A stretch of DNA of 21,973 bases, taken from a virus. The notes beneath the pieces are model-generated. The model did not search any database. It had not been told where the DNA came from and saw nothing but the letters and a program-made list of their open reading frames with translations. Where the stretch lies: positions 1 through 21,973 of IMG/VR virus record IMGVR_UViG_3300020057_000166; one strand, written 5' to 3'. Below are positions 1,885 to 20,484 of this stretch, in pieces. The translations under genes and the position numbers were made by a program. Position 1 is the stretch's first letter; each line of letters starts with the position of its first letter.

Positions 1885-3333
1885 CTACTCCTCCAGCGTG
1901 TCTTCGGTCGGATCCTCTTCCGCCTTCTTACCTGGATTCGGCAGTGTAAAGCCGGGATCCAATTTAATGTCCGCCTTCTCCTTCTCAGAACTGACGCCCT
2001 CACGCGCCCAGCCACCTTCCTGCAGCTTCGTGTAAAACGTCTCGAAGGAAATCGACCCGGCTTGATACGCATGCAGCAGCGCCTCAACATCCTGCGCCGA
2101 CATCTTCACCGAAAAAAAGTCCTTGTTCAGTTCCACTTCACACTCCGCCGACAGCGGATCCTTGACCACGACAAGTCCAGACCACCACGTGTGCCACTTG
2201 AGGCACGTGCTCATCGCCCGCTCAAGGACCTGTCCGATGGTTCGAATCGTGGCGTGCTCGCCGGCGTGTCTCATCGCCACCGTCTGCGCCGCCTCTACAC
2301 CACCGTTGGTATCCGGTTCCAAAAGACGCGCACCGAGAGCCGCCATCATCTTGCGCTTCTCCGACTCCGCCTTCTCCAGAGCACCGAGCCCCTGGCCGGT
2401 GTACTCCAGCATCCCGGCGTGTCCGCCCATGTCGAGAATCCACGCCGAGCCGGAGCCGATCTCCAATGGTCCCTCGGTCTTCAGCCCGCTTACCCACGGA
2501 GTCGGTAGTGCCGTCAGATGCCGTCCGTGTTCAAGGTCCGCCATCGTTCGGTAATGCGAGAGGTTGATGTCCACAAGATCAAGTAACGGCGGCCGATCCA
2601 CATTCACGTTCGTTGAGGACGGGCCGATGCAAACGAACGGGATGAATTCTAACGGAGCACCACGCCGAAGCGGAGTGATGGCTTCGATCGTGATGAACTC
2701 AATCTTGTTGTTCGGGTCCGGCTTCACCACCGTCTGCGTGTATTGCCCATCCTCGATTGAGAGAATCCGATACCGCGTGTCGTCCTTCATCACGAAACGA
2801 TCTTTCGAATCTTCGATGCGGATCGACTCGCGCAGAACGACACGCTTCAGAACTTCATGGCCCTCGACTCTATCGGTCTTCCACGACACGATGTCTTCGG
2901 CGAGGTACTTCACCCAGTACGGGCGGGACACGTGCGGGTTCGACCGAATCTCCGTGGCCATGTCTACAAGGACTCCAACGCGACCAACGAGCAGCGTCTC
3001 GATCGCAAGGTCGATCCCGAACGTGTCGAGCGAGGATCCCGAGAGGCTGATGTCCTTCAGGTGATCCACAATTTCGTCAGGACAACTCACCAATGGGGGC
3101 TTCTGAAACAATGCGCCGGAGAACCCGTTTACGGTTCGGGATGTCCCGTTGAAGAACATTCCGCGCTGCAAATACGCGCTGTACTTCTCGGGCCTCGTGA
3201 TGTGGCTGTCGAGGCGAGGCAGGTATTCAATCCCGGCCGCTTTCACGGCGTCCTCGCCACTGTAGCAATCCCGACATCGCTTCCATCGCGAGTACGCTTC
3301 GCTGTATTCCGGACGCGGTGTGTTTACCGGCAT
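1885..3333 (-). CDS. Portal protein, DUF4055 type
   Basis: 482 aa. The N-terminus RPEYSEAYSRWKRCRDCYSG, followed by KAAGIEYLPRL, YSAYLQRGMFFNGTSRTV and GFSGALFQKPP, is the recognisable opening of DUF4055 phage proteins, which function as portals. The portal is a dodecameric ring at one capsid vertex through which the terminase pumps DNA. Gene order (large terminase, small ORF, portal, head-morphogenesis protein) is the classic head module. The C-terminus is acidic (EEDPTEDTLEE), as is frequent in portals. The start at 3333 overlaps the end of the 54-aa ORF by 10 bp. Confidence 0.88.
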   Translation of the reverse strand: MPVNTPRPEYSEAYSRWKRCRDCYSGEDAVKAAGIEYLPRLDSHITRPEKYSAYLQRGMFFNGTSRTVNGFSGALFQKPPLVSCPDEIVDHLKDISLSGSSLDTFGIDLAIETLLVGRVGVLVDMATEIRSNPHVSRPYWVKYLAEDIVSWKTDRVEGHEVLKRVVLRESIRIEDSKDRFVMKDDTRYRILSIEDGQYTQTVVKPDPNNKIEFITIEAITPLRRGAPLEFIPFVCIGPSSTNVNVDRPPLLDLVDINLSHYRTMADLEHGRHLTALPTPWVSGLKTEGPLEIGSGSAWILDMGGHAGMLEYTGQGLGALEKAESEKRKMMAALGARLLEPDTNGGVEAAQTVAMRHAGEHATIRTIGQVLERAMSTCLKWHTWWSGLVVVKDPLSAECEVELNKDFFSVKMSAQDVEALLHAYQAGSISFETFYTKLQEGGWAREGVSSEKEKADIKLDPGFTLPNPGKKAEEDPTEDTLEE

Positions 3334-3488
3334 GGCGTTCTATACTCCCTGGGCACCACGTCGCTCCCCTCCACGTCGCTCCCCTCAAGATGAGCTTTGA
3401 TCGTGGCGTCGAGCCATGCATTCGCTGCCTCACGTGGCGTCTGGTGCCCGGCGCTTTGCGGATCGTCGATGATGATTCTGTCTAGCAT
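3324..3488 (-). CDS. Small ORF between terminase and portal, 54 aa
   Basis: This frame, MLDRIIIDDPQSAGHQ..., starts at the ATG at 3488, 4 bp after the large terminase stop, and ends at 3324 inside the portal start region. It fills the only gap between the two genes, which supports it being translated. It is acidic and soluble, with a helical stretch (PREAANAWLDATIKAHLEG) and an exact tandem EGSDV-EGSDV encoded by a 15-bp DNA repeat. No family is recognised. Confidence 0.55.
   Translation of the reverse strand: MLDRIIIDDPQSAGHQTPREAANAWLDATIKAHLEGSDVEGSDVVPREYRTPCR
3356..3385 (-). repeat. Perfect 15-bp tandem duplication in the 54-aa ORF
   Basis: CCACGTCGCTCCCCT occurs twice back to back on the plus strand (3356-3370 and 3371-3385). 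In the ORF it gives EGSDV twice without a frame change. The exact identity suggests a recent slippage event. Confidence 0.9.
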
Positions 3489-3492
3489 TGTG

Positions 3493-5034
3493 CTACCCCC
3501 AGCTTACTTCGACTTGCTTCACGACTCTCGTCTTCGCCAGTTCGTTGAACGCACTCGACGAGCCATCGACCTGATCGTCCTGCTTCGCGCTCGGAAACGC
3601 CGTCACTTCGCTGAGATATTGCGCATTCCATACGCCTCGCAGAAGCTTAACATTCCCGGACTGAGCCTGTGACCGATATGGACTCGCGCGCACCGTCTTG
3701 TCTCCGGTGATCTGGACCGGCACGTAGTCAAAGCCCACCATCGCCCTCGCCCGCGCTTCGACCACCGCCTTACCGGATGATCCGCCCTCCTTCTCCTCCG
3801 CCACGGTGCATTCCCTCCCGTCGGCTCGCGCTGTCTCAAGCATGATCTTGTCCACGTCAGCCGGCCCCCACTGCCCGCGAACTACGTCCTCGACGTAGAA
3901 AGTCGGACCGATCTGCGTGATCTTCACCCCGACCGTGTAGTTCCCGCCACCAGCGGTCGCCGCCGTATCCCATCCCCGCACCGACCGGCGCTTTCCCTCC
4001 GGAAGCTTCTCGATGATGCCAAACCACTCCCGCTTGAACAGGCCGCCACCAGCGGGGGACGGACGCTGCTGCAACTGCCCGGCGACGTTGTACTCCTCGC
4101 CGAGTGCAATCTCAAGCTTCTTCACCTTCTCCTCGTCGAATAGGGTCGGCCAGAGAAGCTCGCCCTCAACCGTGCGCTGATCGAGCGGGTCCGGATAGAA
4201 CATTCGGCCGCCGGACTCGACAGGCTTCGCTTCATACCGCATCGGTAGGCGCAAGTGTTCCCAGCCTCCCTTGTCAAGAAGATGTCCAGAGAGATCCTCA
4301 CCGTGAAGGCGCTGCATAATTACGATGATGGCCGCGTTTCGCGTCACGCCGCGAGTCGTGATCGTCGAATCGAACCATGAATTCACAAATTCTCGATCCG
4401 CCTTTGACCGGGCCTGTTCGGCTGTCAGCGCGTCGTCAATGATGATCCGGTCGGGATGGTCTCCGGTCGCCGCTCCGCCGACCGACGTTGCGAACATCCA
4501 TCCGCCCGCCGTCGTCTTGAAAAGCTGCTTCGCGTTCTGATCCCCTGCAAGCCGCACCATCGAATTCTTCTGGTACCACTCGCTCTGGACAATGAGCCGG
4601 ACGCGCAGGTTATCCCGGAGTGAAAGGTGCTCGCCGTACGATGCCTTCAGATACCTCAACTCCGGGTTGCTGAACCACTCCCAACACGGCCACGCCACCG
4701 AGAAGAGAATCGACTTCGTTGTCGCAGGCGGAACGTTCACAAGTAAGCGCGTCACCTCTCCGCGCGTCACCGCTTCGAGCCGCTCGCACTCCACGTCAAG
4801 ATGCCAGTTCCATTTGATCGGCGTGCCGGGCTCGATGAGTGACCAGACCAACCTCGTGAAGTAGGCGAGTGAAGATCGCGCCTTCTCCACTGACTCTTGA
4901 TCGTCGGCGGCTCTGACGTTACGCCGCAGCGAGATCCTCTTCAGCGACTCGATGACCCGGACCTTCTCCCGCTCCGATAGTCCAGAAAGGCGTCCGCTTA
5001 TTGCTGATAGGGTCGCGAGCGCTTCAACGTTCAT
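3493..5034 (-). CDS. terL: Terminase large subunit (packaging ATPase/nuclease)
   Basis: 513 aa, full length for the family. The ATPase domain has a Walker A region VNVPPATTKS (99-108) and a Walker B RIIIDD (196-201). The C-terminal RNase-H-like nuclease starts at RGWDTAAT (353-360, catalytic Asp355) and ends with the typical KQDDQVD (484-490). TerL cuts the replicated concatemer and pumps DNA through the portal. The Walker A is unusual: it lacks the glycine normally before the lysine (ATTKS rather than GTGKS or RHGKS). The gene starts 3 bp after folE, so packaging and base-modification genes share one transcript. Confidence 0.95.
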   Translation of the reverse strand: MNVEALATLSAISGRLSGLSEREKVRVIESLKRISLRRNVRAADDQESVEKARSSLAYFTRLVWSLIEPGTPIKWNWHLDVECERLEAVTRGEVTRLLVNVPPATTKSILFSVAWPCWEWFSNPELRYLKASYGEHLSLRDNLRVRLIVQSEWYQKNSMVRLAGDQNAKQLFKTTAGGWMFATSVGGAATGDHPDRIIIDDALTAEQARSKADREFVNSWFDSTITTRGVTRNAAIIVIMQRLHGEDLSGHLLDKGGWEHLRLPMRYEAKPVESGGRMFYPDPLDQRTVEGELLWPTLFDEEKVKKLEIALGEEYNVAGQLQQRPSPAGGGLFKREWFGIIEKLPEGKRRSVRGWDTAATAGGGNYTVGVKITQIGPTFYVEDVVRGQWGPADVDKIMLETARADGRECTVAEEKEGGSSGKAVVEARARAMVGFDYVPVQITGDKTVRASPYRSQAQSGNVKLLRGVWNAQYLSEVTAFPSAKQDDQVDGSSSAFNELAKTRVVKQVEVSWG

Positions 5035-5037
5035 CGC

Positions 5038-5580
5038 TTATCGGCAGAGGGACAGAAACTCCGCTCGACATTCGGCATTCCTAAACACGCCCTTCAGCGA
5101 GGTGGTCACCATCTCGGCGCGCTGCTTCTTCACCCCCCGGCACGACATGCACAGATGCCGCGCTGTAATCATCACGGCTGCGCCGAGTGGCTCAAGATGC
5201 TTGACGAGTTCGGTCGAGATCGCTTCCGTAAGTCTCTCCTGAATCTGAAGTCTCTTGGCGAAGCAATCCACCAGCCGCGCCAGCTTAGACAAGCCAACCA
5301 CGCGCTGCTTCGGGATATAGGCGACGTGGGCCACCCCGGAAAACGGAAGCAGGTGATGCTCGCATGTCGAGGTGAAGTCAATATTTCTGCACACGATCAT
5401 CTGGTCATAGCCTTCGCCGTGAAAGTCTCGTGCGAGAATCGCTGCCGGATCTTCTGAGTAGCCCGAGCAAGTCTCGCGCATCGCTCGCACCACTCTTGCC
5501 GGAGTGTCAAGAAGGCCTTCGCGGGCTGGATCTTCCCCGATTGCAAGCAAAAGCTGCCGAACGGCTTCCTCGCCAGTCAT
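5038..5580 (-). CDS. folE: GTP cyclohydrolase I
   Basis: 180 aa. FolE opens the GTP ring to 7,8-dihydroneopterin triphosphate, the first step of both folate and 7-deazaguanine synthesis. Zinc ligands are visible as C73 and H76 in TCEHH (72-76) and C144 in HLCMSCRG (142-149). Their 71-residue spacing and the neighbouring active-site histidines (H75, H142) match the family. It starts in an ATGA overlap with the queE stop and ends 3 bp before terL. Since it sits in a queC-D-E operon, its job is very likely supplying the QueD substrate for preQ0 rather than folate. Confidence 0.95.
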   Translation of the reverse strand: MTGEEAVRQLLLAIGEDPAREGLLDTPARVVRAMRETCSGYSEDPAAILARDFHGEGYDQMIVCRNIDFTSTCEHHLLPFSGVAHVAYIPKQRVVGLSKLARLVDCFAKRLQIQERLTEAISTELVKHLEPLGAAVMITARHLCMSCRGVKKQRAEMVTTSLKGVFRNAECRAEFLSLCR

Positions 5581-6176
5581 GTAATCCCCAAGAGCTTATG
5601 TGTCTGTACCGATAGGCTCCATGTTGGATTCTCCAAGCAGAGCCGAATGCAATGTTTGATGTTCTCTCGATCCGGCGCGGCACCCGAAAACTGTGGCGAA
5701 AGGAAATACCTTCGAGCCTTGACCGATGGGCGCGGTACGGCAAGCTGCCCGGAATGCCGTACGTACCGAAGCTCGTCAATCTCTGCGGGCATGTTTTTCT
5801 TCACTACATGTTCGGCGACCTTTGGAGAGCAGGTGATGTAGTCCAGACCGGCCGGCGGTTTGTGATTCCCGTTCGTCTCGATCGCTTGCATGTAGCCTGC
5901 GGCTTTGAAAAACGCCACCGCCTCGGCGGTCAACTGAAGGCTTGGCTCACCACCGGTCCAGACGATCCAACGACATGAAGACGATAAAAGCCGGAGCTTC
6001 TCCAGCAGCGCCTCGGCCGGCAATGCCTTCCCGCTCTCAAACTCGGTGTCACAGAATCCGCAGGTAAGATCGCATCCCGATAGCCGGACAAAAAGCGACG
6101 GATCGCCAGCCCGCCCGCCCTCGCCCTGAAGTGAGTAGAAAATCTCAGATATCTTCAGGTCAACCACGGTATTCAC
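5577..6176 (-). CDS. queE: 7-carboxy-7-deazaguanine synthase (radical SAM)
   Basis: About 199 aa. QueE rearranges 6-carboxy-tetrahydropterin to 7-carboxy-7-deazaguanine using S-adenosylmethionine and a [4Fe-4S] cluster. The N-terminal EIFYSLQGEG motif and the cluster-binding C-x3-C-x2-C (C35, C39, C42 in CDLTCGFCDTEF) are clear, followed by WTGGEPSLQ (73-81), ETNG (100-103) and TCSPK. The frame stays open to a TTG at 6215, which adds 13 non-conserved residues and a larger overlap with queD; I prefer the GTG at 6176 (VNTVVDLKISEIFYS), although no start has a strong ribosome-binding site. Translation is probably coupled to queD. Confidence 0.93.
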   Translation of the reverse strand: MNTVVDLKISEIFYSLQGEGGRAGDPSLFVRLSGCDLTCGFCDTEFESGKALPAEALLEKLRLLSSSCRWIVWTGGEPSLQLTAEAVAFFKAAGYMQAIETNGNHKPPAGLDYITCSPKVAEHVVKKNMPAEIDELRYVRHSGQLAVPRPSVKARRYFLSPQFSGAAPDRENIKHCIRLCLENPTWSLSVQTHKLLGIT

Positions 6177-6525
6177 ATGAACTCGTGCACGTCTCGTGAA
6201 CCCGAACGGCGACAAGCAGTGACAAGCTTGGCTTCAGTTCATCGAACAGCCATCGAGCGATTGCCTCACTTGTCGGGTGCGTCAGCGGCAAGGTGTCGTT
6301 CAAATAGTGGTGATCTAGTTTCTCGTCAAGAATTGGCTTGATAGCACCAGAGACATCTCCGAAGTCCATCACCATTCCGGCCTTCGGCCCCTCGGCCTCG
6401 AGTTCCATTGACTCCAGAATGAGAACCGCCAACCATGAGTGACCATGTAGGCGCGCGCACTTTCCGTCGTGCTGCGGCAGCATGTGGGCCGCTTCGAACT
6501 TCACTTGCTTTTCAAGCCTGAACAT
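6160..6525 (-). CDS. queD: 6-carboxy-5,6,7,8-tetrahydropterin synthase
   Basis: 121 aa from the ATG at 6525, which has an excellent Shine-Dalgarno (GAAGGAG, about 8 nt upstream) and a 14-bp overlap with queC. QueD converts dihydroneopterin triphosphate to 6-carboxy-tetrahydropterin. The zinc histidines are H14 (FEAAH) and H27/H29 (RLHGH), with catalytic C23 (GKCARLHGH). The LDHHYLND motif (70-77) and E111 in HETCTSSCEY complete the family signature. The frame is open to 6570, but those 15 residues are Arg-rich, not conserved and lie inside queC. Confidence 0.94.
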   Translation of the reverse strand: MFRLEKQVKFEAAHMLPQHDGKCARLHGHSWLAVLILESMELEAEGPKAGMVMDFGDVSGAIKPILDEKLDHHYLNDTLPLTHPTSEAIARWLFDELKPSLSLLVAVRVHETCTSSCEYRG

Positions 6526-7189
6526 CCGCGTTCTCCTTCGCATACTTGGTCGGGTCGTCAACTCCGGCAACCTCGAAAGCCTCGCGCCTCTCTACGCATA
6601 TTCCGCATTCTCCGCAATGAACACCCGGCACACCTTCATAACACGAGTACGTCATGCCGAATGGTACCCGAAGCGCCACCCCCATCAAAACGATGTCTGC
6701 CTTCGATAGCTTGACGAACGGGCGAATGATCTTCACGGCATACCAGTCGGCCAAACCTAGTGCTGTATCTAGGGCCGCGACGAACTCCTCGCGGCAGTCT
6801 GGATAGATCGCATGGTCGCCGGCATGGGCGGCGTAAGCGATGGAGTCAGCCTTCCGACTAATTGCCCACGCGCCCGCGACAGCGAGCATGAGCATGTTGC
6901 GATTCGGAACGATGGTCAGCTTCATGCTCTCTTCTGCATAGTGCCCGTGTGGTACCGCAAAATCATCAGTCTGACTGCTCCCGCCAAGCAATGGTCTCAG
7001 CGCCGACAAATCTGCCACCTGATGTTCAACGCCTAGCATCTTGCAAATTAGACTTGCCTGATCCACCTCGTGCCGATGTCTCTGCCCATAGTCAACCGAA
7101 AGCGTGAGGACTTCATGCACCTCCGCTCGCAGTTTGTAAAGCAACACCGTCGAGTCAAGACCGCCGCTGTAAATCAAGACTATTCTCAT
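6512..7189 (-). CDS. queC: 7-cyano-7-deazaguanine (preQ0) synthase
   Basis: 225 aa. QueC uses ATP and ammonia to turn 7-carboxy-7-deazaguanine into preQ0. The PP-loop SGGLDS (8-13), the LSVDYGQRHRHE motif, and the zinc cluster C183, C192, C195, C198 in HCGECGICVERREAF are all present. I chose the ATG at 7189 (MRIVLIYSGG) with AAAGGTG upstream; a GTG at 7198 is also possible. No glutamine-amidotransferase domain is fused, unlike the Gat-QueC of phages that make archaeosine-type DNA. Codons 83-96 are duplicated, inverted, at the end of the neighbouring dpdA. Confidence 0.95.
   Translation of the reverse strand: MRIVLIYSGGLDSTVLLYKLRAEVHEVLTLSVDYGQRHRHEVDQASLICKMLGVEHQVADLSALRPLLGGSSQTDDFAVPHGHYAEESMKLTIVPNRNMLMLAVAGAWAISRKADSIAYAAHAGDHAIYPDCREEFVAALDTALGLADWYAVKIIRPFVKLSKADIVLMGVALRVPFGMTYSCYEGVPGVHCGECGICVERREAFEVAGVDDPTKYAKENADVQA
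6902..6943. repeat. Source arm of a 42-bp inverted repeat (inside queC)
   Basis: This queC segment encodes residues 83-96 (HYAEESMKLTIVPN). Its reverse complement matches 7249-7290 at 40 of 42 positions. Flanking it, the 15 bp at 6855-6869 and the 13 bp at 6941-6953 also recur, in direct orientation, around the second arm. Confidence 0.92.
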
Positions 7190-7236
7190 GTCCTGCACCT
7201 TTTCAAATAGCCTTCACGAAAGAGTCACGCCCGGTT

Positions 7237-7301
7237 CGACTAATTGCCCACTATGCAGAAGAGAGCATGAAGCTGACCGTCGTTCCGAGTGCCCGTGTGG
7301 T
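7237..7301. repeat. Rearranged partial copy of queC at the dpdA 3' end
   Basis: Three adjacent blocks all match queC: 7237-7251 (direct, CGACTAATTGCCCAC, same as 6855-6869), 7249-7290 (inverted, 40/42 to 6902-6943), and 7289-7301 (direct, GTGCCCGTGTGGT, same as 6941-6953). The block carries the stop codon and last codons of dpdA. Direct flanks around an inverted core suggest replication template switching. Confidence 0.88.
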
Positions 7302-8033
7302 GGTTGTCCTGCCCTGCTGGCGACGGCAAGTCATGGGCAACCCATTTAATTCGGTCATCCGCTTTGCCCACTTCGCTCTCGCCCTCCGCTCAAGCCGCAA
7401 GTACCATTCAATCTCCGAACGAAGATCCTGACTTCCGCCGCGCACGCTCATATCTCCGTAGGACTTCCACTGCCCGAACTTACACGGACCAATCTCCCAG
7501 TTTGTCGCATCCACAGAATGCCACGGAACCGCAAGAACTTGCTTCTCGGACCCAAAGCCGAACCCGTGAATCCTGGCGGGCCACACGCGAGCGAAGCACT
7601 GCTCCACCCACTTCATCTTAGCCGCTCCGCGCAAAAGGGCGACACCTCCGAGAGCAATCTTTGGATAGTCCTTCGCGATGTGCTTGAGGTCCATCTCTGG
7701 GCTGCCACGATGAAAGGTAGGAATAGCGGGAACGCCGGCCTGCCACATTCGCTCACAGTTCTTGAGACTAGCCTGCGCGTCGCCTATCACGTCCAGAGAA
7801 AATACTTCTGTGAGCGTCTGGTCCTCGGCAAGCAGCCGCTTCGCCGTTTCGATGTACGCCTCTAGGCTTATCTCAATGCCGCTATAGTATACCGAAAATG
7901 CGCCAGAATCCAGCACCCAATCCCGGTATGCATAACGGTGCTGGTTCTTGAGGAAGCCAGCAAGATATGCGTATGACACGAGCAGCGCCGGTCTCGATTC
8001 TTGCGGAATCTGACTAGCACCATTCTTGCCCAT
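7251..8033 (-). CDS. dpdA: DpdA-like DNA-guanine transglycosylase (TGT family)
   Basis: 260 aa from the ATG at 8033 (MGKNGASQ), with AAGGTG about 13 nt upstream. DpdA swaps guanine in DNA for a 7-deazaguanine. TGT-like signatures are visible: DSGAFS (42-47, compare DSGGFQ), LDVIGD (80-85), KIALGGVAL (125-133, compare GGLAVGE), HGFGFG (156-161) and SVDATNWE (173-180), the last probably holding the nucleophilic Asp175. The frame is open to a TTG at 8174, but that extension crosses a G9 run and two direct repeats read in different frames, so it is probably not coding. The last ~16 residues come from an antisense copy of queC and are not family-like. The adjacent preQ0 genes support a DNA role; a tRNA-modifying TGT is less likely because the protein is short and phage-encoded. 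Confidence 0.88.
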   Translation of the reverse strand: MGKNGASQIPQESRPALLVSYAYLAGFLKNQHRYAYRDWVLDSGAFSVYYSGIEISLEAYIETAKRLLAEDQTLTEVFSLDVIGDAQASLKNCERMWQAGVPAIPTFHRGSPEMDLKHIAKDYPKIALGGVALLRGAAKMKWVEQCFARVWPARIHGFGFGSEKQVLAVPWHSVDATNWEIGPCKFGQWKSYGDMSVRGGSQDLRSEIEWYLRLERRARAKWAKRMTELNGLPMTCRRQQGRTTTTRALGTTVSFMLSSA

Positions 8034-8177
8034 CAACACATTATCACCTTGCGCCCCTGGTGCGTGCGCCAACCGTACCGAGAGTTCCTTCAAGGTTGAG
8101 TCACCAGAATTCCTGTCACGTGCAAACCCAACCGTACCGAGACTGCCACGTTGCCCCCCCCCTCTGGATGACAACCA
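8034..8177 (-). promoter_or_regulatory. Probable leader/regulatory region of dpdA
   Basis: About 144 bp between the ParB-like gene and the chosen dpdA start. It contains a G9 homopolymer (8154-8162) and two exact 15-bp direct repeats TCTCGGTACGGTTGG on the minus strand (8128-8142 and 8069-8083), 59 bp apart. Repeats of this kind can be operator or activator sites. A GATAAT hexamer lies just before the start, but no -35 box is correctly spaced, so no promoter is claimed. Confidence 0.4.
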
Positions 8178-8834
8178 TCATCCCGCAAGAAAATCGGCGC
8201 AGATTAGCTCGACTATTCTTCCATCGCTCGCCTCTTCTCCAGCGTCGGGTGTTGCCTTCTCTTTCGCTCTATCGAAGACCGCGCGCTGTTCCTTCGTCAG
8301 CTTGATTGGATCACCCATCAGAACATGCTCATCGAACGCCTCGACCAACGCCGGAGCCCACTCGGCCTTCAGCAGATTCTCAAGCTCGTGGTCGTCGTAC
8401 CCGGTCAGGGTCTTGTCCATGTCTTCGGCCATCTCTTTGAGCAGCACTCCAAGAACTTGATAATCCGTCTCCGCAAGCTCCGCGATCCGGTTGTCCGCGA
8501 CAAGATGAGCCCACTCATCCGCCTCATTCGCGAACTCCTGAACGTCAACCGGCACGCGCTCCTCGCCAAGCGATATCGCCGCCGAGAGTCGAGCGTGTCC
8601 AGCCACTACGAAACCGGACCGCGCGCTCACCACTACCGGCGACCGCCAGCCCTGATGCTTCACGATCTTGGCAAGTAGCTCGATCTGCTTCTCTGGGTGC
8701 TGGTTCGGATTCCTCGGGTGAGGAACGAGAGCCGTCACCTCGCGCATCTCTTTATACGAACATCGGACCGCAACACCGGGCTTCTTCTTCACCACCGCCT
8801 TCTGTTTCTTGGCCGGTCGTTTCTTGACGCTCAT
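8178..8834 (-). CDS. ParB/Srx-fold protein
   Basis: 218 aa. After a Lys-rich N-terminus (1-20), a ParB N-terminal-like domain is visible: VPHPRNPNQHPEKQIELLAK (about 37-56), HQGWRSPVVVSARSGFVVAGHARLSAA (60-86) with the GHxR nucleotide-binding motif at 79-82, then VPVDVQEF. In phages this domain is often found alone, or fused to DNA methyltransferases, and may bind or cleave DNA or hydrolyse CTP. No methyltransferase or HTH domain follows; the C-terminus is helical. It is coupled (ATGA) to the small-terminase-like gene and stands next to dpdA, so a role in DNA modification or packaging is possible but unproven. Confidence 0.82.
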   Translation of the reverse strand: MSVKKRPAKKQKAVVKKKPGVAVRCSYKEMREVTALVPHPRNPNQHPEKQIELLAKIVKHQGWRSPVVVSARSGFVVAGHARLSAAISLGEERVPVDVQEFANEADEWAHLVADNRIAELAETDYQVLGVLLKEMAEDMDKTLTGYDDHELENLLKAEWAPALVEAFDEHVLMGDPIKLTKEQRAVFDRAKEKATPDAGEEASDGRIVELICADFLAG

Positions 8835-10453: not shown

Positions 10454-12880
10454 CTATTGACAGGTGACCGCTCCTGCGCCATGGCTTTTCACGATGGCGT
10501 AGAGGGTGACGGTGGTGGGGACGATGGTGGTGAAAACTGGAGTGACCTTGAGCGAGATCGTGGGCGACGTGCCGGTCGCAGTAAATCCGATGGTGGCCGA
10601 GCCCGAGTTGTTCGCCGAGCTCGATGCCGTGACAGTCGGAGTTGAGACGGTCATCACGGTGGCCTTGTTGACAAAGGCGAGGTTCGCCGACTGCGTTTCC
10701 GAGTCGAAGTTCGTTCCATCGGTAGCCGTGAGGGAGAGTTCAACCGACGCGCCACCGCCCGAGTTTGAGGCGAGAGCGATGGTGGCGAATGTGGTGGCTG
10801 TCGCGCTGGTGTTGCTCAGAATCTTTGAAGCGCATACCGTGAAGGCATTGGCTGTAGTCTGAGCCGTGGTGCCTGTCGCCTTGGTCAATGCCCGGTTGAT
10901 GTTGTTCTGGTTCACGCCCGTGCCGGTTCCGATCTGAGAGCCAAGGGTAAGGCTAGATGCCGCGATGTCCGTTCCCGTGATGCCGTCGTGGGCCTTTAGG
11001 GTCTGCGCGACTGGAGAGCCGTTGACATCTACGCCAAGCTGGATAGCTGCCGCAGCGTCTTTCATAAAAAAAGCATTTGGGCCGGTGGTAATAAGTCCCG
11101 AAGCATTTGTGCCCCACCCTATTTTCAGATTTGTAGTCCCGACCAGTCCTTCCCCAGACCAGTTCATGCCAATACAATATGTAGCTGCATCAGTACAGAG
11201 GCTCACTATTCCTTGGGAGGATGTGTAGTAAAGACCGGCGCTTAAATCTCCGGTCACGAATCCGTAGGCAGGAGTACCCGCCGTGGTATTTCTGACGCCA
11301 CGAATCGAGACTAGTGGGGTAATGGCGGTATTCGAAATGGTCAGAGTACTCGCCAAGGACTGCGGCGTCGTGCTGGATGCGCCTATCGTGGGCGTCTTTA
11401 TAATCACCGCAGGCGATGCGCCCGCGCCCGTGCCGATGCCCGAGGCGAGGCTGAGGCTCGCGCCCGCGATGTCCGTTCCCGTGATGCCGTTGTGGGCCTT
11501 TAGGGTCTGCGCGACTGGAGAGCCGTTGACATCTACGCCAAGTTGGAGGGTTGGTGATGGTATCGAGAGCGTGATCGCACCCGTAGAACCGCTCGCGGCA
11601 ATCTGGTTCGCGGTCCCCGTGATCGTCGTCGGGAGCGCCGTGCATGTCTCCACGACGCCCGATGCATCGACCCCAAGCGGGAACTGATCCGCTGAGCAGT
11701 TCGCACCGTTCGCAGCGAGGGCAGTGGCGGTCCCAGCGTTGCCGGTCGTGCTGCCCGATGAACCGGTAACGTTCCCTGTCACGTTGCCCGAGAATGTCCC
11801 CGTGGTCGTGCCGGGGAGGGTCGGGGATGATGGTATCGAGAGCGTGATCGCACCCGTAGAACCGCTCGCGGCAATCTGGTTCGCGGTCCCCGTGATCGTT
11901 GTTGGCAGCGCCGTGCAAGTCTCAACCGCACCCGAGGCATTGACCCCAAGCGGGAACTGACCCGCCGAGCAGTTGGTCCCGTTCGCAGCGAGAGCGGTAG
12001 CGGTCGCGGCATTTCCGGTCGTTGATCCGGATGAGCCGCTTACGTTGCCTGTCACGTTGCCCGAAAATGTGCCCGTGGTGGTGCCCGGAAGCGTCGGACT
12101 GGTCGGGATTGAGAGCGTGATCCCGCCGGTCGCTGCGCTGGCCGTGATCTGGTTCGCGGTCCCCGTGATCGTTGTTGGCAGCGCCGTGCAAGTCTCAACC
12201 GCACCTGAGGCATCGACCCCAAGCGGGAACTGACCCGCCGAGCAGTTGGTCCCGTTCGCAGCGAGAGCGATAGCCGTCGCGGCTGATGTGGCGGAGGTCG
12301 CATTCGACGCCAGGATGGACGAGTGGCACGCCTGCCCGCCCGCACCATCCCCGTTGATCCCCACGAGGCGCAGGAGGACATCAGCCTTCGCGGCCGTCGC
12401 CACAGAGACGGAGGAGGAAACGGCGATAGCGATGGCATCGACCGCGACCGAAGGCCCTGACGCGCTGTCAAGGTAGGCCCACCCGCTCGCGCCCGTGGTG
12501 TCCGTCGTGTACTGGAGCCGCAGGGCAGACGTAGCCGCGCCTGCCGCGATCACCTGAGTCGTGAGCCGAATGGTCGATGTGTTGGCGAGGTTCGCACGCC
12601 AGCGGTACGTGGTCACCCCGCAGAACTCCGTGAGAGCGGCGGGTTGAATGGGCCACACGATCCCGGTGGGCACGCTAGCGATCAGGATCGCAGGCACGGT
12701 ATGCGCAGCGTTCCACTCATCCTTCGAGACTTTCGTCGCATCGCCGCCCTGGGGCATCCCGCTCACGAATGCATGGATGACGTTTTGGGTCGCCTCAATT
12801 CGGATCGCGCCGAATTGGGGGTCGGTCGCGAAGGCAGGCACCGCGACGAGAACCCCTAATAGCGCCGCCAGAATCTTCAT
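10454..12880 (-). CDS. Large repeat-rich fibre-like protein with signal peptide, 808 aa
   Basis: Starts at the ATG at 12880 with a strong AGAGGGGGA site, in an ATGA overlap with the previous gene. A signal peptide (MKILAALLGVLVAVPAFA) is followed by a short N-terminal domain, then three copies of a 91-residue repeat (LAANGTNCSAGQFPLGV...TGTFSGNVTGNV at about 206, 297 and 388, the last shortened). Two copies of QLGVDVNGSPVAQTLKAH (446-475 and 614-643) flank a central region (about 490-613), and a Ser/Thr-rich beta-type C-terminal domain ends the chain. The composition (Gly, Thr, Ser, Ala, Asn) resembles phage tail fibre or appendage proteins. A cleavable signal peptide is odd for a virion protein, since these normally assemble in the cytoplasm; it may be a surface-exported protein instead. 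Confidence 0.7.
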   Translation of the reverse strand: MKILAALLGVLVAVPAFATDPQFGAIRIEATQNVIHAFVSGMPQGGDATKVSKDEWNAAHTVPAILIASVPTGIVWPIQPAALTEFCGVTTYRWRANLANTSTIRLTTQVIAAGAATSALRLQYTTDTTGASGWAYLDSASGPSVAVDAIAIAVSSSVSVATAAKADVLLRLVGINGDGAGGQACHSSILASNATSATSAATAIALAANGTNCSAGQFPLGVDASGAVETCTALPTTITGTANQITASAATGGITLSIPTSPTLPGTTTGTFSGNVTGNVSGSSGSTTGNAATATALAANGTNCSAGQFPLGVNASGAVETCTALPTTITGTANQIAASGSTGAITLSIPSSPTLPGTTTGTFSGNVTGNVTGSSGSTTGNAGTATALAANGANCSADQFPLGVDASGVVETCTALPTTITGTANQIAASGSTGAITLSIPSPTLQLGVDVNGSPVAQTLKAHNGITGTDIAGASLSLASGIGTGAGASPAVIIKTPTIGASSTTPQSLASTLTISNTAITPLVSIRGVRNTTAGTPAYGFVTGDLSAGLYYTSSQGIVSLCTDAATYCIGMNWSGEGLVGTTNLKIGWGTNASGLITTGPNAFFMKDAAAAIQLGVDVNGSPVAQTLKAHDGITGTDIAASSLTLGSQIGTGTGVNQNNINRALTKATGTTAQTTANAFTVCASKILSNTSATATTFATIALASNSGGGASVELSLTATDGTNFDSETQSANLAFVNKATVMTVSTPTVTASSSANNSGSATIGFTATGTSPTISLKVTPVFTTIVPTTVTLYAIVKSHGAGAVTCQ
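10952..11041 (-). repeat. Repeat block B, second copy (about 90 bp)
   Basis: Encodes QLGVDVNGSPVAQTLKAHDG and following residues (614-643). It matches the first copy at about 11456-11545 (446-475) almost exactly in DNA. Confidence 0.88.
11546..12280 (-). repeat. Three 273-bp tandem repeats in the fibre-like gene
   Basis: A 273-bp unit (91 codons) is repeated with high DNA identity, the third copy truncated. Conserved anchors are CCGTTCGCAGCGAG at about 11706, 11979 and 12252. The near identity at DNA level points to recent duplication or gene conversion. Confidence 0.9.
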
Positions 12881-14279: not shown

Positions 14280-14887
14280 CGGACAGACGCCTCGAAAATC
14301 GCATTGAATTGCTCGATGCGATCCGCCAACGGAATCGCCAGCACCGCCGTCACAATGCACCGATCCCCCGCGCGGGTAGACGCCCGGAGGGTGGGGGTGT
14401 AGTTCTGCGCGGTATCCGTGAGCGTGCAGCTCGATGGTGCCCCCATCACTACCCGCGACGTTTCGAGGTACCAGATTGGGAACCTGTTGCGATTGCACGA
14501 GTCGGGAATCTGAACCTCACCGGAGCGAGGGGTCGCATCAAGTCTGCGAGATTCGCCCGGGGCGATGTCCCGGTCATCCGCGGCCGCGGAGTGGAAGCCA
14601 AGCGTCATGCGCGTTGGGAGACATGGGTCAGCGGCCTCAGGGGTCGGACTCACAGTCGGTCGGACAGACGGCGATGGAGTGGCGATCGCGGAGGGACCGC
14701 TTACGGTTGATGTTGCGCACGTGGAGCCCCCGGTGCAGATGAGGTTCCCCAGGTCGCACGCGGCCGCCAGGAGGAAAACCACCGCGGCAAGCAGGGCGGT
14801 AGCAGCGGTGGGAGTCGAACCCACTGATTGCTGGTTATGAGCCAGCCGACGTAACCGTTCGTCTCCGCTGCGTCGTTCCGGGTTCAC
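14276..14887 (-). CDS. Lipoprotein, 203 aa, whose start overlaps a tRNA gene
   Basis: A GTG at 14887 has a very good Shine-Dalgarno (GGAGGT) and a GTGA overlap with the upstream lipoprotein gene. From it, the first ~30 residues (NPERRSGDERLRRLAHNQQS...) are tRNA sequence read as protein. Then follow a hydrophobic segment and lipobox, ATALLAAVVFLLAAAC (Cys near residue 44), a Thr/Ser/Pro-rich linker and a domain with several cysteines. The mature protein would be an envelope lipoprotein of about 160 residues. Whether translation truly starts at 14887 or at an internal GTG after the tRNA (short of a normal signal peptide) is unclear. Function unknown; it is in the lysis cluster. Confidence 0.55.
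   Translation of the reverse strand: MNPERRSGDERLRRLAHNQQSVGSTPTAATALLAAVVFLLAAACDLGNLICTGGSTCATSTVSGPSAIATPSPSVRPTVSPTPEAADPCLPTRMTLGFHSAAADDRDIAPGESRRLDATPRSGEVQIPDSCNRNRFPIWYLETSRVVMGAPSSCTLTDTAQNYTPTLRASTRAGDRCIVTAVLAIPLADRIEQFNAIFEASVR
14800..14872 (-). tRNA. tRNA with CAU anticodon (Met, or Ile2)
   Basis: A cloverleaf can be folded by hand. The acceptor stem is CGCAGCG/CGCTGCT (six pairs and one terminal mismatch). The D-stem is GACG/CGTC with loop AACGGTTA. The anticodon stem is GCTGG/CCAGC with loop CTCATAA, anticodon CAT. A 5-nt variable loop follows, and the T arm is GTGGG-TTCGACT-CCCAC. The discriminator base is A; CCA is not encoded. Position 8 is G rather than T, a deviation. 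The gene lies inside the 5' part of a lipoprotein ORF on the same strand. CAU could mean elongator Met, or Ile if the C is modified to lysidine; it lacks the clear features of an initiator tRNA. Confidence 0.85.
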
Positions 14888-17533: not shown

Positions 17534-17622
17534 TTTCCTTTCGCCTTTCGGTTCCGAGACAGCATAAGCCGCTCCAGCGCCGGGCGCTCTCCGGTTGGTT
17601 CATACATGACGATCAATGTCAT
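17530..17622 (-). CDS. Small basic peptide between DnaB and RuvC genes, 30 aa
   Basis: MTLIVMYEPTGERPALERLM... begins in an ATGA overlap with the helicase stop and ends in a GTGA overlap with the RuvC-like start, so ribosomes could pass through all three genes. It has a basic C-terminus (SRNRKAKGK). The exact double coupling argues for real translation; function unknown. Confidence 0.5.
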   Translation of the reverse strand: MTLIVMYEPTGERPALERLMLSRNRKAKGK

Positions 17623-18896
17623 TCTGGCTCCTCCTCGGCTTCCTCCGAAAAGCGCTGATGCTTTCCCGTGAAAATCAGAGTCACCGTCCCGCATGGTCCA
17701 ACTCGGTTTTTCTCGACCATGATGTTCACCGCCACGGGAAAGCTCCGATCCGCGTCCGCGTTGACGCGATGGAGAAGCAACGCCACATCGCAATCTGCTT
17801 CGATGGAACCAGAGTCGCGAAAGTGCGAGAGTCTCGGCTTCTCGTTGTCCGCGTTGGCCGCTTGGCGGTTCAACTGGGCACACACGATCACGGGCACGCC
17901 AAGATCTCCGGCCATTGCTTTCAAGCCGGACGAGATCTCCGTGATCTCCTCGTTCCTGTTCGATCTAAACTTGCCCTCGGATCTCATCAACTGGAGATAG
18001 TCCACCACGATCAGCCCGAGTCCGTGCTTCGTTTTAATCCGCGCCGCCCTAGCCCGAATCGGGCCGAGTGATGGCGCGTACAGCTTCTCGACATAGAGCG
18101 GGGTCTTGCTCTGGCGTCCGAATACCTCTGCCATCCGAGCCATGTGCTGCTCGTGTCCCCACTGCAGCGCGTACCGAGATATCTCCGCCTCGCCGCACGC
18201 CCGCACGACCGCAAGTTCCGCCGCTTCCATTTCTAGCGAAAAAAAAGCCACGACGTGCCCCTCGTTCGCCGCGTGGTCTGCAATCTGGAGAGACAACGAC
18301 GACTTGCCAACGCTCGGCCTCGACCCGATGGCGATGTACTGCCCGGCCCGGAAGCCGCCGGTCATTTCGTCCAGCCTCTTGAATCCGGTTGGAATCCCGG
18401 TCGGACGCCCCTGAGACGCCACCAGTTCTTCGACCGTCCGGATCCCGAGCCTAGAAAGCGCCAACGGATCAAAGCTCGTCCCGTCTTGGGCCACCGAGTC
18501 AAAACCGAACGCGAGAGACCGCAAGAAGGCCAGGAGCCGCTGAGAATCCAGGGCAGGGTCTAGAGCCATGGAGTCGAGCTTAGCGATCTCCTGGGCCAGC
18601 CTTCGTCGCCTACCGGCCTCTTTGACAGCCTCGACCCACCCCTCAACCGCGCTATCAGTCGGATAGGGCAGGTCGTCGATCAGGGCGTCAATAGCCCCGC
18701 GCTCCGCCTCTGGAAGCGAGCCCTTCACCGATATCGCGTCGATGGACCGGCCCCGCTCGTAAAGTTCTCGAATTGTAACGAAGACCAGCCGCGCGTCTGG
18801 TCCAAAGTGATCGGCCCGCAGGGCCTCGACTACCGAACCGAAGATCGAACCGTCGATGAGACAGGCCCCGAGGATTGCACGCTCGGCCGGAAGCAT
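17619..18896 (-). CDS. dnaB: Replicative DNA helicase, DnaB family
   Basis: 425 aa. The N-terminal helical domain (1-100, MLPAERAILGACLID) is typical of DnaB. The RecA-like C-terminal domain has Walker A GSRPSVGKSS (191-200), SLEME (220-224), Walker B LIVVDYLQLM (295-304), QLNR (341-344) and SHFRDSGSIEADCDV (357-371). It forms a hexameric ring that unwinds DNA at the fork with ATP. Start: the ATG at 18896 overlaps the upstream stop (TGATG); the longer frame to 19037 only reads over the upstream gene. Primosome-like genes precede it. Confidence 0.95.
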   Translation of the reverse strand: MLPAERAILGACLIDGSIFGSVVEALRADHFGPDARLVFVTIRELYERGRSIDAISVKGSLPEAERGAIDALIDDLPYPTDSAVEGWVEAVKEAGRRRRLAQEIAKLDSMALDPALDSQRLLAFLRSLAFGFDSVAQDGTSFDPLALSRLGIRTVEELVASQGRPTGIPTGFKRLDEMTGGFRAGQYIAIGSRPSVGKSSLSLQIADHAANEGHVVAFFSLEMEAAELAVVRACGEAEISRYALQWGHEQHMARMAEVFGRQSKTPLYVEKLYAPSLGPIRARAARIKTKHGLGLIVVDYLQLMRSEGKFRSNRNEEITEISSGLKAMAGDLGVPVIVCAQLNRQAANADNEKPRLSHFRDSGSIEADCDVALLLHRVNADADRSFPVAVNIMVEKNRVGPCGTVTLIFTGKHQRFSEEAEEEPE

Positions 18897-19105
18897 CACT
18901 CGTCTCCCTTCGCTGCGCGGATGTGCCACAAGGCTTTCATCGCAGCCCTGCCTCGAGAATCTTTCACCAGTGCAAACGCCGCCAAGATCCGCGCCGCCCC
19001 GGCCCACTGTTCGTCCACGCTCTTTCGCTCTGGGCAATCACGAAACAGCGGATTATCCGGCTCAGGAACGGCCACGGATTCTGGTACCGGATCAGTTGCC
19101 TGCAT
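18896..19105 (-). CDS. Hypothetical protein, 69 aa
   Basis: The ATG at 19105 (MQATDPVPESVAVPEPDNPL) has a GGAGG site about 9 nt upstream and overlaps the previous gene by 14 bp. The first third is acidic and proline-rich; the rest (VDEQWAGAARILAAFALV..., RAAMKALWHIRAAKGDE) is helical. Its stop overlaps the helicase start. Between the helicase and a possible loader, it may help loading, but no family is recognised. Confidence 0.55.
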   Translation of the reverse strand: MQATDPVPESVAVPEPDNPLFRDCPERKSVDEQWAGAARILAAFALVKDSRGRAAMKALWHIRAAKGDE

Positions 19106-19475
19106 TGTTCTTGGCCTCCTCGGCATCAATCGCTGCGCGGAACTTTCGGCGTGCTGCTTCTCCGGCCGCTATCTGCTCTGGAGTCCGGGCCGCCTTTTCC
19201 GCTTCCCACTCAGCGATCTCTTCGCGTTGCCTCTGTGCGGCTTCTTTGCTGAAACGATCACGCTGAAAGCCCGTCGCCAATTCGTAGATCTCTGCAATAC
19301 TCGGAAAAAACCTGCACTGCTTTACGGCCGCCTTGACAGCCTTATCAAAGTCGGCATGATGCAGACCGCCCAGGGCTTCCGCGTAGGCGGCTACGTTAGC
19401 CTCATCAAAAACGATCGCCATCGGATAGCTGGCGCGGAGACGTTTGAATCCGATGCCCAATTCTTCTTTTTTCAT
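19092..19475 (-). CDS. Possible helicase-loader-like protein, 127 aa
   Basis: MKKEELGIGFKRLRASYPMA starts at 19475 and overlaps the DUF1376 gene by 71 bp. The pattern AYAEALGGLHHADFDKAVKAAVKQCRFFPSIAEIYE (about 30-65) resembles the helical N-terminal domain of phage G39P-type helicase loaders/inhibitors. The C-terminus is a long charged helix rich in Ala, Glu and Arg. It lies one gene before DnaB in an operon with a primosome-type protein, which fits loader function. A shorter start at 19421 (MAIVFDEANV) would reduce the overlap. Confidence 0.6.
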   Translation of the reverse strand: MKKEELGIGFKRLRASYPMAIVFDEANVAAYAEALGGLHHADFDKAVKAAVKQCRFFPSIAEIYELATGFQRDRFSKEAAQRQREEIAEWEAEKAARTPEQIAAGEAARRKFRAAIDAEEAKNNAGN

Positions 19476-20484
19476 GTTGTGCTCTTTTTTCTAAAACAAT
19501 GTCAATCGCATCAAAACCGCTTTGGGTCTTGGCATTAAGCTGTGGTGCCGATAGGGCGCGTTGGCGGGCCTCCAGTGAGTCGGCCAGCATTCTCAGGACG
19601 ATCAGTCCGGAGTCCTTCTGCGGAACGCCCAAGTCACCACACATCTGCCAGCGGTGGACCGAGAATGATGGGCGATCCTTGGATCGAACAGAGTCCACGA
19701 AGGCTTGTAGGTCTTGGCCGAGCGCCTCGACGGCGCGGAAGACTCTCTCGACCCGCCGCACCTCGATAGCCCAGTTTTCTCGGAATGCGTCAACGGCCGC
19801 GCACTCTTCAGGCGAGACAGAAACAAGCGAACGGACCAGCCTCGCACCCGCGCGTGTTTGTTCCGTATCCGTTTCTGTAAACGAAGACGAAGACGAAGAC
19901 GAAGACGAAAGGCTTTCGCTGGGCTTTCCGGAATGAAAGCCCGGCGAAAGCCCCGGCTTTCTATCCGGTGTTGATTTCATTGGCCTTCCGCCCTTTCGTC
20001 CATTCTCCGAGTTGAGCATGGAGCGCTCCCGCGGTGGAACTCCTTGTCTCTCCGAAGACGAAGACGAAAGGCTTTCGCCGGGCTTTCCGGAATGAAAGCC
20101 CGGCGGAAAGCCCGGCGAAAGCCCCGGCTTTCTATCCGGTGTTGATTTCATTGGCCTTCCGCCCTTTCGTCCCTTCTCCGAGTTGAGCATGGAGCGCTCC
20201 CGTTGTAGAACTCGTTCTCTCTCAAGACGTAACTGAGACAGGCGGCCATCGCCATCCGGCGCGAAGCATGGAGCCACAGAAGGCCAGCACGATCTGAAGG
20301 TTTTGGATGAGATTTTAAGGAGCCGCTGGAGACGTATCGGATCGGCCGGGATGGAGCCTTCGGTCCAACAGTTCATCAGGAGGCGCATGTACATCCCAAA
20401 CTCCTGGAGCGTCATCGCCTTGCATCGCTCATCCGAGTCGATATCCTTCGGGTAGATCGAGAAGGCCGGCGAGGGGGCCTTCAT
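19405..20484 (-). CDS. DUF1376 replication/primosome-type protein with duplicated linker, 359 aa
   Basis: The N-terminus, APSPAFSIYPKDIDSDERC...LQEFGMYMRLLMNCWTEG, is the DUF1376 winged-helix-like domain (about 1-90) found in phage replication initiators. A basic Ser/Pro linker follows. In it, a ~50-residue unit (RERSMLNSE(K/N)GRKGGRPMKS, TPDRKPGLSPGF, HSGKP) is present twice (about 96-146 and 152-200), ending in serine runs. The C-terminal helical domain (about 215-330) may contact the helicase or its loader. Start at the ATG at 20484, in an ATGA overlap with the upstream 52-aa ORF. The DNA of the linker forms strong hairpins and may be the replication origin. Confidence 0.75.
   Translation of the reverse strand: MKAPSPAFSIYPKDIDSDERCKAMTLQEFGMYMRLLMNCWTEGSIPADPIRLQRLLKISSKTFRSCWPSVAPCFAPDGDGRLSQLRLERERVLQRERSMLNSEKGRKGGRPMKSTPDRKPGLSPGFPPGFHSGKPGESLSSSSSERQGVPPRERSMLNSENGRKGGRPMKSTPDRKPGLSPGFHSGKPSESLSSSSSSSSSFTETDTEQTRAGARLVRSLVSVSPEECAAVDAFRENWAIEVRRVERVFRAVEALGQDLQAFVDSVRSKDRPSFSVHRWQMCGDLGVPQKDSGLIVLRMLADSLEARQRALSAPQLNAKTQSGFDAIDIVLEKRAQHEKRRIGHRIQTSPRQLSDGDRF
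19901..20212 (-). repeat. Near-exact ~150-bp tandem duplication with hairpins (candidate origin)
   Basis: Units at about 19901-20041 and 20061-20212 are nearly the same apart from a short insertion. Each holds a long hairpin: 19911-19952 (GGCTTTCGCTGGGCTTTC pairing with GAAAGCCCGGCGAAAGCC, loop CGGAAT, 17 of 18 paired plus one G-T) and 20070-20112. A six-base GACGAA run flanks each unit. Lambda-like phages place their origin inside the initiator gene, so origin function is possible. Confidence 0.8.

Follow-up and report, generated by a model that had tools for sequence, protein, structure and literature searches.

A duplicated iteron and hexamer-array module in the linker-coding DNA of a phage DUF1376 gene, a probable intragenic replication origin

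Introduction

Replication origins that lie inside the gene of their own initiator are already known. In lambda and the Stx phages, iterons and an AT-rich tract sit inside O (PMC7466680), and in SPP1 oriL lies within gene 38, with initiation requiring the loader gp39 and the helicase gp40 (PMC6316719). On the plasmid pSK41, rep carries the Rep boxes midway along its length, and the linker protein encoded by this origin DNA is dispensable (PMC5703833). The RK2 initiator TrfA binds the repeated 13-mers of the opening region on one strand (PMC4081077).

DUF1376 (YdaU) is an uncharacterized family whose members occur in conjugative plasmids, in phages and in prophages, among them E. coli Rac. We describe here a DUF1376 gene in which the DNA coding for the linker behind the domain carries a duplicated repeat element, and compare this element with the corresponding DNA of other family members. 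The window analyzed is the whole record IMGVR_UViG_3300020057_000166 (21,973 nt), a linear contig and possibly a genome fragment. In the open-access literature, we found no account of DUF1376 family-wide origins with 11–12 bp palindromic iterons and 6- or 7-bp arrays.

Results

Gene context of the window

The gene order in the window is predicted initiator (DUF1376), predicted loader, DnaB:

19405–20484, minus strand: DUF1376 gene (359 aa), predicted replisome organizer or origin-binding initiator (Pfam PF07120, E 1.2e-7; PHROG "primosomal protein", E 5e-12)
20215–20424, minus strand: DUF1376 domain (winged helix), the predicted DNA-binding part (structure model)
19092–19475, minus strand: small helicase-loader-like gene immediately 3' of the DUF1376 gene (phrog_2289 "helicase loader", E 1.3e-5)
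17619–19037, minus strand: DnaB-type replicative helicase (PF03796, E 1.3e-69)

The window protein passes the curated cut-off of PF07120 (32.4 bits against 30.1). DUF1376 is its only Pfam match; PF04492 (Phage_rep_O) was found neither there nor among 56 family members, and the same 56 gave no Pfam match to RepA_N (PF06970) at E<=1. The window gene has no close relatives among viral contigs or phage records, and the family was reached from it only via distant plasmid and phage homologues. One virus contig (L002) is 99% identical to the window, with the DUF1376 gene outside its coverage.

We note several other features of these two contigs. The FolE-QueE-QueD-QueC-DpdA-like block of the window (5036–8462) is missing from L002, which at that place (3606–5090) has a frame of about 470 codons that resembles a DNA cytosine methylase, as judged by eye; these near-identical phages may have exchanged cassettes for DNA modification. 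A tRNA-Met (CAT) gene lies at 14801–14871 on the minus strand, and open reading frames on either strand overlap it. A 273-bp repeat (2.7 copies, 11555–12283) within a large predicted structural gene (10454–12880) suggests a repeated tail-fiber-like module. At one contig end (21684–21973), degenerate repeats rich in the pentamers GCCTT/GCCTGGCC extend over about 290 bp upstream of the exonuclease-like gene and are open in several frames. At the opposite end (6–110), 15-bp repeats encode pentapeptide repeats (LTGANL..) on the minus strand, in a gene truncated by the contig end.

Anatomy of the duplicated element

The linker of the DUF1376 gene contains a head-to-tail duplication. A whole-copy alignment shows that one copy is longer than the other by exactly one 12-bp repeat, the remaining differences being a few substitutions. 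The following parts can be distinguished:

20053–20223, minus strand: copy 1 of the putative origin module, 171 bp (duplication alignment)
20070–20124, minus strand: iteron cluster of copy 1, with GGGCTTTC at 20124, 20113 and 20101 (minus strand), inverted at 20070 (GGCTTTC) and 20080; 20-bp perfect hairpin
20053–20068, minus strand: hexamer array in copy 1, 2.7 units of TCGTCT as read on the coding strand (ACGAAG run)
19894–20052, minus strand: copy 2 of the putative origin module, 159 bp, lacking one 12-bp iteron relative to copy 1
19911–19957, minus strand: iteron cluster of copy 2, with GGGCTTTC at 19953 and 19942 (minus strand), inverted at 19911 (GGCTTTC) and 19921; 18-bp hairpin
19881–19909, minus strand: hexamer array of copy 2, TCGTCT (ACGAAG run), 4.8 units

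The duplication appears as two pairs of direct repeats, 19935–20052/20106–20223 (118 nt, 95%) and 19894–19957/20053–20116 (64 nt, 94%). The first hairpin (20070–20089/20104–20123) has a stem of 20 bp that is 100% complementary and a loop of 14 nt; the second (19911–19928/19935–19952) has a stem of 18 bp that is 94% complementary and a loop of 6 nt. The sequence-only reading of this DNA had placed two duplicated hairpin units with GACGAA runs in the linker, at 19901–20212. These units are real, and the array starting at 19881 begins about 20 bp outside that interval. Each "hairpin" is better seen as several GGGCTTTC repeats spaced 11–12 bp apart in both orientations, that is, as a dyad-symmetric iteron cluster, and the GACGAA run corresponds to the hexamer class among the arrays of the family. 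Read in the coding direction, each copy consists of GGGCTTTC iterons followed by an array of the hexamer TCGTCT (GACGAA).

The array is the best tandem repeat of period 4–9 in the whole 22-kb record. When folded as single-stranded DNA, the element reaches a z of -6.98, and 0 of 200 shuffles are equally stable. Among shuffles of synonymous codons that preserve the protein, 0 of 150 reach its inverted-repeat score (20), lag-6 score (23) or lag-12 score (17); the amino-acid sequence therefore does not explain the pattern. We conclude that the duplicated hairpin and hexamer pattern in the window is not a product of chance.

A chance duplication of a hairpin, a mobile REP-like element or an assembly artifact is extremely improbable as a source of the element. 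No close relative covers the window gene, so that the tandem duplication itself is known only from this record and rests on one assembly. However, the two copies differ at several bases and by one iteron, a search of viral contigs found the hairpin sequence nowhere else, and a single-copy form of the same plan is found family-wide. A search of Rfam for an RNA-level role gave no match in the hairpin region of the window.

A two-part module across DUF1376 genes

DUF1376 genes were gathered without using the linker sequence, by comparing conserved domain peptides with viral contigs and genomes and by searching bacterial genomes with Pfam; others came from records of phages and plasmids and from E. 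coli Rac. Of 163 genes, 104 remained after dropping those more than 70% identical, and 98 had usable linkers; these 98 are not fully independent, though their array and iteron sequences differ, and copies in bacteria may be decayed prophages. Linkers were scored for ungapped self-matches at every lag and for inverted repeats, with synonymous-shuffle nulls, and neighboring ORFs of the same loci (443 windows) were given the same scores as controls. Applied to phage lambda as a positive control, the scoring script picks out the annotated iterons (lag 20, 23), together with a 7-bp repeat, AAAAGAAAAAAGAAAA, within the A-rich region next to them. Bacterial genomes yielded three loci of the lambda-O family, one (L173) with 22-bp iterons and an A-rich 12-bp repeat and two (L174, L175) without a clear pattern.

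At a score of at least 9, period 6 is found in 49 of 98 linkers and in 1 of 443 neighboring coding windows (Fisher P 8e-41), and period 7 in 15 linkers against 1 control window (P 4e-11). The longer periods behave similarly: period 11 marks 28/98 linkers and 1/443 controls (P 1e-21), period 12 marks 37/98 and 6/443 (P 1e-24), while periods 4, 5, 8 and 13 reach this score in 0–1 of 98 linkers each. Inverted repeats scoring at least 9 occur in 36/98 linkers, compared with 2/42 C-terminal regions and 5/98 domains. The signal at lags 11 and 12 comes mostly from iterons with palindromic units, lag 12 also including doubled hexamers. Examples of such iterons are:

L094: AACCATCGTTG, four copies
L116: CAACCACGGTT
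L046: TGCGnnCGCA, three copies
L022: AACGACCGTTC, three copies
L020: CTATGGCTAAGC, three copies

The arrays of relatives are built from hexamers such as TCTTCA, AACCAG, AGTCAG, TGACAG, TCCAGT and TTTTCA, or from heptamers such as TCTCCGA, CTTCAGT, CCAATAA, AACCATA and CACCARA. Despite these unrelated sequences, the family has a common plan, in which palindromic repeats 11–12 bp apart are followed by a tandem array with a period of 6 or 7. The array comes after the iterons, on their 3' side, in 35/37 cases, with a median gap of 31 bp, and the array start is centered on residue 135 (interquartile 131–143). Arrays are G-poor on the coding strand, where C outnumbers G in 55/63 of them, and their GC content is below that of their own gene in 53/63; the TCGTCT hexamer of the window is half G+C and not AT-rich in absolute terms. 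The DNA module, its place, its iteron-then-array order and its gene context are conserved in the family.

The sequence-only reading had regarded relatives with the protein but without hairpins as evidence against an origin. Here, 19 of 103 relatives show neither an array nor 11-bp iterons at a threshold of 8, although several of these 19 have short or degenerate arrays, and domain-only genes mostly hold the module outside the gene. Two loci (L024, 2495–3358; L105, about 2495–3671) carry an HNH-endonuclease-like insert between the domain and a serine array, the hexamer array being kept downstream of the insert. In the ydaU-ydaV region of E. coli Rac (L004, 4120–5730), YdaU shows a dyad besides a weak array (ATAAAGATACAGATAAAGAT), and YdaV contains a DnaC/IstB-like ATPase, which suggests that Rac keeps a relic initiator-origin-loader module.

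The module is conserved as DNA

A repetitive tract in a coding linker could also be protein-level low complexity: a disordered linker would tolerate serine or dipeptide repeats made by slippage, and the DNA pattern would be a by-product. Many arrays do encode Ser-rich linkers, and those of two close relatives (L032, L034) differ by whole units, as slippage would leave them. However, the heptamer (15/98) and 11-bp (28/98) periods ignore the codon frame. Since 7 and 11 are not codon multiples and such repeats run through all codon phases, these periods argue for selection on the DNA. For 64 of 98 genes, the best period of the linker scores above that of its synonymous shuffles at p<=0.05, so that shuffled codons mostly fail to reproduce the periodicity. 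The dipeptides encoded by the arrays vary freely (SS, SQ, NQ, AV, PA, PV, FS, IK, ET, KA, SD), from FS and AV to ET and KA, whereas the DNA period does not.

The position of the module in other members bears on the same point. In the domain-only genes L075 and L154, it follows the stop codon and is non-coding; in L013 and L100, it also lies past the stop, where a short in-frame reading is possible. The sole array of L021 is well downstream of the gene, and Pelagibacter phage Baldr (L007) has a similar pair about 0.4 kb upstream of its DUF1376 gene. Low complexity of the protein is very unlikely to account for these observations, and they indicate that selection on the linker module acts on DNA, not on protein.

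Predicted fold and helicase-loading context

The model of the DUF1376 domain is a winged helix (pLDDT 92.5). The best fold matches are 4pql (Z 6.0), 5kbj (Z 5.8) and 4pt7 (Z 5.6), with unrelated winged helices at Z 5; the Foldseek E is about 0.1. Among the top matches by Foldseek and VIA-align, 4pql and 5kbj are RepA N-terminal domains of pSK41-type staphylococcal plasmid initiators; DnaD is listed as well. Since the fold score is moderate and winged helices are common, shared descent with RepA is a lead rather than a result. A PDB sequence search with the DUF1376 domain profile gave no match.

In a tested set of 20, biased to longer ORFs, the gene after DUF1376 encodes a DnaB-like protein, lambda P, a primase or a loader of the DnaC/IstB type in 17; in L037, a lambda-P homologue lies directly 3' of the DUF1376 gene. 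A PHROG scan of ten short downstream proteins returned one match, to families of unknown function. Plasmid DUF1376 genes adjoin dnaB.

Palindromic sites within the gene of a protein with a predicted winged-helix domain would also suit an autoregulatory operator, to which the DUF1376 protein would bind to control its own transcription or translation and not replication. This is likewise very improbable, given that the element sits mid-gene and not at a promoter, that known origins show a comparable fixed order and neighboring array, here a G-poor 6/7-mer array, and that helicase and loader genes adjoin it. Repeats and dyads mark packaging, recombination and partition sites too, and the element might be such a cis site of the phage DNA. 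We consider this very unlikely: the large terminase gene (3493–5034, Pfam) is about 15 kb from the hairpin element, and in phages, prophages and plasmids alike the module stays with the DUF1376 domain, the plasmid genes of this family standing beside dnaB.

A probable origin within the initiator gene

The window thus combines palindromic direct repeats within a predicted initiator gene, a repetitive element adjacent to them on one side, and a loader and DnaB alongside. From this anatomy, the duplicated element is likely to be the phage's theta-type replication origin, located within the gene of its own initiator, where the DNA codes for the linker. Taking the family together, comparison of sequences suggests that the element is very probably an intragenic origin in the style of lambda, SPP1 and RepA_N, present throughout DUF1376. 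The sequence-only reading had proposed a lambda-O-like origin here, and the comparative evidence favors that proposal: the module follows the DUF1376 domain in most relatives, has periods that ignore the reading frame, occurs in non-coding copies and stands next to loader and DnaB genes. The GC skew of the record has no turning point at 20 kb and lends the origin no support. As the window is a linear and possibly incomplete contig, a second origin could exist elsewhere.

By analogy with known systems, and from the anatomy, we propose that (I) the N-terminal DUF1376 winged helix would bind the palindromic 11–12 bp iterons, (II) the resulting complex would open the adjacent G-poor hexamer array, and (III) the small loader would place the phage DnaB on the strand exposed at the array. 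The tandem duplication doubles the number of iterons and arrays.

Discussion

The array itself may serve easy melting, act as a single-strand docking track or provide primase sites. The binding of RK2 TrfA to a single strand is a precedent for a docking track (PMC4081077). Of two genes whose domains are 96% similar (L140, L141), one carries a heptamer array and the other a hexamer array. Tentatively, and with more doubt than confidence, we suggest that DUF1376 origins could form a widespread class in which the opening element is recognized by its repeat period (6 or 7 nt) and not by its sequence. In such a class, the array could be a docking track for the initiator or the loader, with one protomer per 6–7 nt, its sequence and even its period being free to change beside the iterons.

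If the origin reading is true, the whole DUF1376 family gains a function, that of an origin-binding replisome organizer, and the origin of each member can be located from sequence to about 100 bp. A puzzling low-complexity protein tract would be explained as DNA, synonymous recoding would provide a direct test of the nature of the opening element, and uncultured phages would gain ready mini-replicons.

Among known systems, lambda O and ori-lambda share with the window a mid-gene origin, palindromic iterons with an A-rich opening region after them, on one side only, and a loader, P, encoded next (PMC7466680). In contrast to lambda O (PF04492), the window initiator comes from another family (Pfam: DUF1376 only). 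DUF1376 iterons are 11–12 bp apart and not about 20–23 as in lambda, the predicted opening region is, unlike that of lambda, a 6- or 7-bp tandem array, and the window phage encodes its own DnaB, which lambda does not. SPP1 gene 38 with oriL likewise has direct repeats and an AT-rich opening element inside the initiator gene, and a set of loader and DnaB-family helicase (PMC6316719); no sequence relation to the window was detected, SPP1 being compared by its published description. In the RepA_N initiator of pSK41, a winged-helix N-terminus of about 120 residues binds boxes that are central in rep (PMC5703833). RepA_N differs in being described on Gram-positive plasmids and in having no Pfam sequence match to DUF1376, while the match in fold is moderate.
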